From Proteromonas lacertae (lineage: Eukaryota; Sar; Bigyra; Opalinata; Proteromonadidae), in assembly GCA_002245135.1 (NCBI GenBank), contig NGBS01000301.1, positions 120,426 to 184,425 of the forward strand: a stretch of 64,000 nucleotides of DNA, read 5' to 3'. This document shows positions 1,436 to 4,546 of the stretch, piece by piece; the first letter of the stretch is position 1; every line of letters starts with the position of its first letter. A program made the position numbers and the translations under genes. The notes under the pieces are model-generated. The model was not told the DNA's origin, ran no database searches, and was given only the letters and a program-made list of their open reading frames with translations.

Positions 1436-4400
1436 TTAGAAGTCATAATCAACAATTAATGAATCATCACTATAAATACAATAATAAATATATTATTAAT
1501 ATACAATGTAGATGCTCTGCTTCGTGTATATATTGTATATCTACTCTTAGTAGATGTAAACATTGCCAAACAGAAATTCAAAAACTTTGCTGCCTTTGGT
1601 GAAAATGTCATTTTATTTACTTCTACATCTGGTTGTTCACCATAAGTTATCTAATAAATATACAATAATATATATAATATTATACATTAGTTAATTTGAT
1701 AGTATCAATAATTGTTGATCCCAATATAAACAAGGATATTAAAATAACCCAAACGGTAGTTCTAATACAATATAACATATAATTTATATATATACAAAGT
1801 AATCATTTCTACATTATGAGTTGGGAATATAATAGATAATGAATAAGCAATAGCTCCTCTCAATCCACTATGAATCATTACAACTTGGTAATTACTAGGA
1901 ACTCGAGGATTTTTCTGTCTAAAATTCAAGAAATATGATAAAATAATGATCATAAAAAACCTTACAACTAATAGAACAGCAAAAACATATAAAATCCAAA
2001 GTATTGGTATATTACTAGTATCAAAGGTCAATGCAATATTTTGTCCAATTTGGAAAAATATTAACATTTCACACATATGTGCAACAATATGAGTACTGTC
2101 TTTAGAGAAATTAACTGAAGCGTCATCCATTGATTTTGTAGCAAAATATTGCATAGACAAACCACAAAACACTGACGATGTAATACCACTTAAAGTTAAA
2201 CTTTCACAAACGCAGTAAGACATATACGAACATAAGAATACAACCAATGCGTCTAAAACAGGAGCATGAAATTTGCAAACTTTCAAAACAAAAGATGCAA
2301 AAATTCCACAAATAATACCAATTAGAGTTGATCCAACAATCATAATCATAAAAAAACAAATACTCCAAACTACAGCACCAGTTGTAATAACTTTAGATAT
2401 GAATTGGCTGCATGTTTTGAATAAAACAATTGCTACAGCATCATTCAATACACTTTCACCATAAACATAAGTATTAAGTAATGGTTCAACTCTAAGTGAT
2501 GAAAATAAGGCTAAAACTGAGACAGGATCTGTAGCTGAGACAATTGAACCATAAGTAATACATTCAATATTTGACCATCTAAAGTCAAACCAATTGTAGT
2601 TAAAACCTAAAATTAAAAATCCTCCAACAGCAAATGCAGTAAAAACAGAACCAATAGCAGCAAATACGAAGATTGTACCAAAATACCTTAAGAATAATGC
2701 TTTAGCAGTCATATTATAACCAGATTCAAATATAATAATAGGTAAAAGTACCAACGAAAAGAATTCTTTATCAAATAGAGCATTTTCTATTAATTCCTCA
2801 GTGAAACCTAATCTGAATATAACACCAGCAATTATTCCAATCACAACAGTAGATGAAGTCTCAGGGAAATGCATAATATTATATTTCTCAATAAATGTAC
2901 CACAAACTATACAAATAACTAAAAACATTAATTCTATAAAGTAAAACCTATTTCCATTAAATATATAAACATATAATATTAAATAAATATACATTGCTTC
3001 TGTTGATGCTTCTCCTACTGGTTCATCATCTGGAATATCAGTTGTACCATCACTAAAATAGGGATTTATATCTAATTTAAATGTCTTGTTGGATGTAAAT
3101 GAACCAATATTGATTAATTGATCATTCTATATATATAATATAATGTTATATATATATATATATATGATAATTATACATGATAATTTTGATAAATATATCT
3201 CCAATCTATTCTATCATATTTCTTATCAACTCGAATATGTCCTGTTTGTCCTTCAAATGAGACTTGTCTACTGTATTGCAATAATTCAGAACGATTTTTA
3301 CTAAATAAGTATAACTAAATATTTATACTAAATATCAATATTTTTATCAAGCATAATAGTCAATGTTTCACCAATAAAGTAAATACTATCATATGCATAT
3401 GCAGCAGACATAACAATATCATTTTCTTCAAATGATAACTCATGTCTACATTTATCTTCAATCTTCTTCACTACATCTTCATGATTCTTCTTAAATTCTC
3501 TAAATTTCTTTGCTAATTTGCTCATATCTCCAGGATCAGGTAATACACCAACTGCACCATTCATTGCATTCTTTACAGTATCTCTATATTCAGTTGGTAA
3601 TAAATAATAAGTTTCTGAACTTAGCCAATCTGTGGAAATCCATACCCATCCTTTACCTATCATATGAAGCTTGGAGGCTCGATATAATACAGCACTAGCT
3701 TGTACAAAGTAAGTATATAATACAATGACTCTAAAACCACGGGATTTGATGTTTTCTAAGGCTTTATCTATTGCTAATTCATCCATCTCTGAGAGTGGTA
3801 ATTTGATATTGTAATTGACACTTTGCTTTAATACAGTCTATTGATAAAAATTATATATATATAAAGATACAAATTCTTCATATAGTCCTTCTTCTTCTAG
3901 TGCTGAAGCAATATCATCTCTCCCTGATAAGCCATAAATATCATTCTGATAAATCAATCCAATATTATTCCAATCATAATTCTTCAATAATGCTACTAAT
4001 GCTTCAGATCTGTATTTATCAGATGGATTTACTCTACCAAAGTGTGGGTAAGCTGTTGTATCTGATAATGAAGAGGAGGTTGATGAATAATCAATTTGAT
4101 TAATATCATCTACTGAACATCTTACTTGAATAACTCGACTGAGTTCACTTGTACCAGGTCCAAAAACTCCAGAAATGCTAGATGATGATAGAAGTGATGT
4201 TAAAGTGGTCAAACAATTATATCTATAAATTTTGATTGACATATTGCATACTCATCATTCTTACAATCTCCAATTATTAGATTGAATGTATTATTCCCCA
4301 TTATATCCTCATTGTGGTTGATTTCTTCAACTGCAATCTAAACAAACGTTACAACATGATTTTATTAATACTTCAGATGCAATGAAATTATAACTACCTT

Positions 4401-4546
4401 CTGTACACCATGTATTAGTTGCATTGGTAATTGATTCAAGATTAAACAAACCGACTAGAAAATAATAAACATGTGAATTTACTCAGATTGATAGCTTCTT
4501 CTGACAAACAACTGACAATAAATACAAATAGGATAACCAAAAACAT
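1436..4546 (-). CDS. ANF-receptor ligand-binding domain fused to a CPA1 Na+/H+ exchanger
   Basis: One multi-exon gene of roughly 930 codons. It begins with a signal peptide (MFLVILFVFIVSCLSEE). Next is a type-1 periplasmic-binding fold of the ANF-receptor/class-C-GPCR kind: GLFNLESITNA, AVEEINHNE, SGVFGPGTSELS, YPHFGRVNPSD, LIYQNDIYGLSG, then GKGWVWISTDWL and FEGQTGHIRVD. The last ectodomain exon ends EPVGEASTEA and is spliced through a 45-nt intron (2948-2992) straight into FYFIELMFLVICIVCG, the first membrane helix of a CPA1 antiporter. The antiporter carries LLPIIIFESGY, SATDPVSVLALF, YGESVLNDAV (ion-binding ND pair) and HSGLRGAIAYSL. After the last helix only about 65 residues remain, with no large cytosolic regulatory tail. 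Splicing keeps frame throughout. Inference: a surface antiporter whose transport is controlled by an extracellular ligand. The ligand cannot be predicted. Divergent from the gene at 4612. Confidence 0.88.

Follow-up and report, generated by a model that had tools for sequence, protein, structure and literature searches.

A gene on the minus strand of a 64,000-nucleotide (nt) stretch of the Proteromonas lacertae genome (the window; contig NGBS01000301.1, positions 120,426 to 184,425) joins a receptor-type Venus flytrap to a complete Na+/H+ exchanger, and we have very little doubt that it encodes one fused protein. With moderate confidence we infer its function, including gating, ligand and location, to be that of a ligand-gated receptor-exchanger, namely a Na+/H+ exchanger controlled by a small molecule, possibly an amino acid, that would bind on the lumenal or extracellular side. 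Both halves are known already; within the searches made, the novelty lies in their joining. No flytrap-exchanger fusion was found described in the open-access literature, as judged by titles and the opening parts of abstracts, with most subscription papers falling outside this scope.

The gene runs from 4546 down to 1436 and comprises 11 exons and 10 GT-AG introns, which were set by hand on the three-frame translation. The frame is open from end to end and gives 919 residues followed by a TAA stop. Within this chain, ANF_receptor (PF01094) matches residues 47–400 (E = 2e-55; 188.7 bits against a cut-off of 25.4; profile positions 5–345 of 353), and Na_H_Exchanger (PF00999) matches residues 463–852 (E = 6.4e-52; 177.1 bits against a cut-off of 26.2; profile positions 4–369 of 375); a Peripla_BP_6 match overlaps the former just below its own cut-off (31.4 versus 31.7 bits). 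Thus, the initial annotation, which had placed a receptor fold and an exchanger in one gene with introns that keep the frame throughout, holds on both counts. The introns measure, from 5′ to 3′, 28, 34, 29, 33, 28, 50, 45, 34, 35 and 35 nt. Exon 1 (4483–4546) supplies the start codon and a hydrophobic N-terminus, and the signal peptide reported earlier stands in so far as this segment, by eye, looks like one. The source assembly amounts to 50.2 Mb in 1181 contigs, and the G+C content of the window is 27.5%.

The joint between the two halves is encoded by exons 7 and 8. Exon 7 (2993–3126) holds the end of the ectodomain and the juxtamembrane segment DGTTDIPDDE, in which P-D-D-E occupies approximately 3033–3022; exon 8 (1796–2947) encodes helix 1 (~2946–2875, by eye) and most of the exchanger, as assigned by translation, Pfam and alignment, including a P-E-T motif (~2865) and the N619-D620 pair (~2445–2440). 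They are separated by a 45-nt intron (2948–2992) that is itself in frame, so that the chain stays open whether the intron is spliced or retained. Motif comparison distinguishes the two forms. We sought the joint motif 25–60 residues from the P-E motif of the exchanger in 27 fused sequences, i.e., the window protein, a second copy in the same genome (C244, described below) and 25 database proteins; P0140 and P0142, which do not have the joint motif, were left out. The spacing is 37 residues in 24 and 38 in three of the 27. Spliced, the window protein has a spacing of 37, which matches 23 of the other 26 fused proteins, whereas three have 38; unspliced, it would have 52, and retention of the intron as the main form was rejected on this ground. 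The in-phase splice proposed earlier for the joint therefore agrees with the family value. The joint motif itself reads P-x-D-R, usually with W-x-x-G just before it, with variants in the window protein (P-D-D-E) and P0145 (P-P-S-D-R), and the motif past helix 1 reads P-E-[STA], or Q-E-S in P0145.

The flytraps in front of this joint have diverged widely, with a median identity of 24% over 275 pairs and a minimum of 16%. A connector and helix 1 that vary by at most one residue amid such diverged flytraps form the strongest single result of this study, and would fit the transmission of force through the connector.

A second genomic locus in which ANF_receptor and exchanger matches adjoin, C244, has the same architecture. 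Its gene (L039 1811–4960) has 11 exons with introns of 24–47 nt and encodes 932 residues with the same domain order, and its joint lies inside a single exon (3297–3577) without an intron. Across the two fused genes (window 1436–4546 and L039 1811–4960), introns are thus very short, at 24–50 nt. The two proteins are 40% identical. Four introns are common to both genes in position and phase, at window residues 22, 50, 78 and 835. The flytrap begins in exon 2 (4372–4454), with the ANF_receptor match starting from residue 47 near 4380, and both introns flanking this exon are among those held in common; the flytrap continues through exon 3 (4252–4337; spliced translation and comparison with C244). 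For the other six introns in either gene, place and phase do not coincide, with one further pair falling within two columns. Given the four common positions and phases, the duplication that produced the two genes probably postdates the fusion. Conservation between the copies at codon positions 1, 2 and 3 is 0.49, 0.60 and 0.43 for the flytrap and 0.62, 0.72 and 0.47 for the exchanger. The order, second over first over third in both halves, resembles that of coding sequence under constraint.

Within this genome, a search with the window flytrap recovered only the window, C244 and, weakly (E = 0.006), a giant frame of the Peripla_BP type. When the flytrap profile was applied to 11 exchanger loci of the genome, four matched, all representing the window and C244, and seven gave nothing. 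Flanks were limited to ~1.5 kb in most of these seven, and the scan did not extend to the matches on C113. High-scoring ANF_receptor genes likewise number two in the genome, both on exchangers.

Outside this genome, a search with the full-length window protein retrieved 165 proteins, and among the best 120, P0001, P0002 and P0005 carry both Pfam domains. A search with residues 230–1010 of P0002 gave 33 proteins, 20 of them with both domains, including P0002 and P0005. Taken together, 25 database proteins share the joint and 21 carry both domains, so the combination proposed for the window gene is found in single proteins elsewhere. The four joint-bearing proteins without a full ANF_receptor match are P0003, which scores just below the cut-off (23.0 versus 25.4 bits), and P0124, P0132 and P0144, which have no such match and whose N-termini look cut. 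Near-copies (P0137/P0139, P0134/P0135, P0133/P0136 and P0125/P0126) bring the independent cases below 25. The source labels of the fused proteins are jgi, lgn, ena and ncbi, and we presume an environmental origin for them, mainly from protists; P0135 is encoded on a contig of 190,814 bases. Among the matches listed, the fusion was not found in named eukaryotes, though many exchangers of theirs without a flytrap were, so that the searches did reach named genomes; the protein searches scored about 8000 candidates at most, so that named species carrying the fusion may have been missed. Pelomyxa schiedti, for example, has an NHE 29% identical and no fused protein among the matches listed. In the best 80 prokaryote loci, examined with flanks of up to 3 kb, an exchanger open reading frame was present in 80 of 80 and a flytrap open reading frame in 0 of 80. 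One scan of viral contigs gave 156 pattern matches, none of them a relative.

To place the fused exchangers, two trees of the exchanger domain were built, a quick one with 108 rows and a careful one with 76. The quick tree omits rows whose exchanger match is short, together with unfused ones that have more than 55% of their three-letter words in common with a kept row; the careful tree omits 33 of 109 rows, namely redundant unfused sequences, long branches and near-copies, P0135 and P0137 among them. In the careful tree, all 25 fused rows fall within a single 27-member clade (ultrafast bootstrap 99, Shimodaira-Hasegawa-like approximate likelihood-ratio test 95), which adjoins the unfused P0142, P0114 and P0120 (100/96); P0142, having no flytrap, was not counted as fused. 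The window protein is sister to C244 (100/99), and P0145 is the next to join this pair (100/94). The careful tree, rooted at the midpoint, requires three state changes, most simply read as a single gain plus two losses, although the latter may be cut sequences.

The core of the exchanger half is intact. Residues D591, E615, N619, D620, R780 and R814 are invariant in a six-protein alignment, and their equivalents are invariant in a 14-protein alignment. An N-D pair accompanies electroneutral exchange. Because the Glu, Asn-Asp, Asp and Arg positions of the exchanger core are invariant, transport by the window protein is likely. An NHE fold was also found for the exchanger half in an AlphaFold model of the relative P0141, where a GABA-B-like Venus flytrap is set directly on it. 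Many fused proteins hold long inserts within the exchanger.

Exon 9 (1686–1761) carries the last exchanger helix, with the Pfam match stopping at residue 852 (~1710), and is followed by a short C-terminal tail in exon 10 (1505–1650; translation and comparison with C244) and exon 11 (1436–1469), which ends with the stop codon at 1438–1436. The initial annotation had noted a nearly absent cytosolic tail and concluded that control may have moved outside. The first point is right for the window protein, whose tail extends ~54 residues beyond residue 865; the second does not generalize. By a rough rule that counts from 50 residues past the GLRGA motif, the tail measures 53–75 residues in the window protein, C244, P0141 and P0001, and ~80–230 in most other fused proteins, with more in two. 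Since most of the family has longer tails, control from outside may add to control from inside rather than replace it.

The flytrap half contains a plausible ligand site. Residues 90–188 of the window protein align with mGluR1 over 99 residues without a gap. Within exon 4 (3871–4222), S103, S124, T126, D146 and Y174 align with mGluR1 S165, S186, T188, D208 and Y236, all identical; the mGluR1 numbers other than Ser165 are those we take to define its ligand site. Exon 5 (3329–3837) contributes D265 (codon 3630–3628), which stands at the place expected for mGluR1 D318 by motif, not by alignment, and is probably a sixth matching position. The flytrap ends in exon 6 (3177–3300), the Pfam match stopping at residue 400 (~3195). 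In a paper on Venus kinase receptors, Ser165 is described as binding the carboxylate, within an eight-residue consensus that handles the groups of alpha-amino acids (PMC3703292). Overall, the site points, somewhat more than evenly, to an amino acid or close analogue as the ligand of the window protein.

Across the family, the site was scored in 24 fused flytraps, counting gaps as not kept and omitting four of 28 with short N-termini (P0001, P0132, P0140 and P0144). Position 165 is S/T in 20, position 208 is D in 18 and E in two, and position 188 is T/S in 15; position 236 is Y in 12 and F in two, position 318 is E in 12 and D in four, and position 186 is S in seven only. Most of the site is lost in P0133, P0136 and P0145. 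With a site this variable, ligands must differ across the family, which as a whole would probably recognize several.

Based on these data, we propose the following mechanism. A flytrap ectodomain of the class-C/GABA-B type leads, through the short near-constant connector, into helix 1 of a full-length exchanger of the CPA1 (SLC9) type. The working form of NHEs, and likewise of class-C flytraps, is a dimer. Two chains would accordingly pair via the membrane part in the manner of NHEs, with both flytraps side by side above. When they close around a small ligand, for which an alpha-amino acid is the likeliest candidate, the flytraps would change their packing, and the connector would relay this change to helix 1, altering the electroneutral exchange of Na+ (or K+) for H+. 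In this way an extracellular chemical, or one in a vacuole lumen, would set pH without a G protein or a kinase. Dimerisation, ligand, gating, cation and location are all points that we infer; that the ectodomain controls the exchanger appears to us fairly probable. Of the ligand-modulated antiporter suggested at the outset, through which a cue from outside would act on cytosolic pH, the structural half is borne out by the in-frame fusion, the two copies and the distant relatives, while the functional half is the best fit to these data.

The proposal can be set against several known systems. The protein resembles the SLC9A/CPA1 exchangers (NHE9, NHE6, NHE3 and NHE1) in having a complete PF00999 domain, the N-D pair with the other core residues and, in the model of its relative, the NHE fold; it differs from them in that they are not known to carry a Venus flytrap and are regulated by cytosolic tails, and in that the fused exchangers form a clade of their own. 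With class C G-protein-coupled receptors (GPCRs) of the GABA-B1 and mGluR1 type it shares the flytrap fold and the mGluR1-like amino-acid site. In GABA-B receptors, too, no cysteine-rich domain lies between flytrap and membrane part, and a short stalk leads into the first helix. When the flytrap plus stalk of P0141 was used as the query, the alignment to GABA-B1 reached the end of the flytrap only. Unlike these receptors, the window protein has no 7tm_3 match in Pfam, and its output part, following the flytrap, is an antiporter. Natriuretic-peptide-type guanylate cyclases and ionotropic glutamate receptors similarly carry an ANF_receptor-type ectodomain on a non-GPCR effector, but that effector is a cyclase or a channel; Pfam found no cyclase, kinase, channel, voltage-sensor or cyclic-nucleotide-binding (CNBD) domain in the window protein. 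Venus kinase receptors place a flytrap of the ANF_receptor family on yet another effector, a tyrosine kinase, and are activated by L-amino acids (PMC3703292). Finally, the sperm exchanger SLC9C1 is an NHE with built-in sensor domains, for which gating by voltage and cyclic AMP was shown (PMC6052114). NHEs can thus be gated by sensor domains attached to them. SLC9C1 and the fused protein are alike in having the sensor in the same chain as the exchanger, and differ in that the sensor of the latter is an outer flytrap ahead of it. The fused protein may be regarded as a variant of the sensor-gated exchanger and, if gating were shown, as a candidate for a new receptor class.

Several observations weigh against this interpretation. 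First, P0028 and P0140 are nested in the fused clade and no flytrap is seen in either, so that the exchanger may work without one. P0028 starts at helix 1 on a contig of 1972 bases and may be cut at its N-terminus, and P0140, which begins with a signal-like segment and continues with low-complexity sequence ahead of the exchanger, may be a true secondary loss of the receptor head. Second, the amino-acid site is not uniform across the 24 flytraps: C244 keeps S165, T188, D208 and Y236 and has a Lys at 318, P0145, the tree neighbour of the window protein and C244, keeps the Ser at 165 only, and some family members may bind no ligand at all. Third, the structure model is of P0141 rather than the window protein, and its predicted template-modelling score of 0.66 leaves the mutual placement of the halves unsure. 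Fourth, the eukaryotic origin of the relatives is an assumption.

As for the alternatives, the one that survives best concerns location and is possible, if unlikely: the flytrap would face the inside of a compartment such as an endosome or a food or contractile vacuole, report digested nutrients or ions, and adjust lumenal pH. The nearest solved exchanger by sequence is NHE9 (E = 9.6e-45), which is endosomal, and the food vacuoles of a phagotroph would be expected to contain amino acids. However, NHE3 and NHE1 score almost as well, and in both trees the fused clade falls outside the NHE6/7/9 group. The topology is equal in the two readings and sequence cannot decide between them; the extracellular sensing suggested originally is accordingly one choice, with the lumen of a vacuole or endosome equally compatible.

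We regard as rather improbable that the flytrap is a passive module serving assembly, trafficking, adhesion or the concentration of substrate near the exchanger. The degenerate ligand sites, such as those of P0133, P0136 and P0145, and the two clade members without a visible flytrap would fit such a role, but a passive module would need neither a connector whose length differs by at most one residue among all 27 sequences nor the mGluR1-like site kept in the window protein. Still more doubtful is a transceptor, whereby the exchanger part would, as a dimer, anchor the flytrap in the membrane and relay its signal, and transport would no longer be the main task of that part. Flytraps of this family do occur on many membrane parts, and the window tail is short with few regulatory sites; against this, the core residues are invariant across the aligned fused proteins, and between the window protein and C244 the exchanger half is better kept than the flytrap half (205 of 416 versus 138 of 408 identical residues). 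That two adjacent genes were read as one, through gene model or assembly, may be set aside as extremely improbable: the window gene does have an intron exactly at the joint, with introns placed by hand on genomic DNA, but the unbroken joint exon of C244 and the database proteins with both halves in one sequence, at a spacing of 37–38 residues in 27 of 27, in effect refute it.

If gating by the flytrap is true, such exchangers would add outside chemistry to the ways in which solute carriers are switched, and would allow a nutrient or a transmitter-like cue to act on pH through one molecule. The fusion also shows that transporters, like GPCRs, cyclases, channels and kinases, have received the class-C flytrap module, and the near-constant connector makes the coupling directly testable. 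More broadly, and tentatively, with a little less than an even chance in our estimate, the fused proteins may represent an old receptor-exchanger family, probably of protists, whose transporters are gated directly by a flytrap like that of neurotransmitter receptors, so that an outside signal, an amino acid or similar, becomes a pH change in one molecule without a G protein, kinase or channel. A single fusion would have been followed by spread to, or persistence in, distant lineages, with the ligand sites diversifying.

Flytraps in other settings are plentiful in this genome. Giant frames with tandem Peripla_BP_5/6 flytraps were seen, for example at G000:C713:48500-58400 (L049), continuing to 59959, and at G000:C994:281000-290900 (L050). 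Part of L049 shows eight Peripla_BP_5 stretches in 2596 residues, and a frame of the same length there (3223 residues) also has 7tm_3; L050 likewise terminates in 7tm_3. These look like class C GPCRs with flytrap arrays. A large expansion of class C GPCRs is also indicated, since the matches listed at E ≤ 0.001 number 132 for 7tm_3 and 112 for Peripla_BP_6; these are matches, not genes, and include copies and fragments.

Other exchangers were noted as well. Two exchanger matches, G000:C721:51048-52184 and G000:C752:18088-19224, have identical scores and stop counts on opposite strands, and represent either a recent duplicate or redundant assembly. Two tandem antiporter-like frames of 485 and 441 residues at G000:C766:49000-54500 (L051) belong to another branch and have no flytrap. 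In the window, a plus-strand frame at 695–1347, next to the fused gene, has the look of a DHHC-type palmitoyltransferase, and a minus-strand frame at 3–353 is tRNA methyltransferase-like, both by eye. Elsewhere, the genome contains one match of the chitin-synthase type (92.5 bits) and one [FeFe]-hydrogenase-type gene, in pieces.
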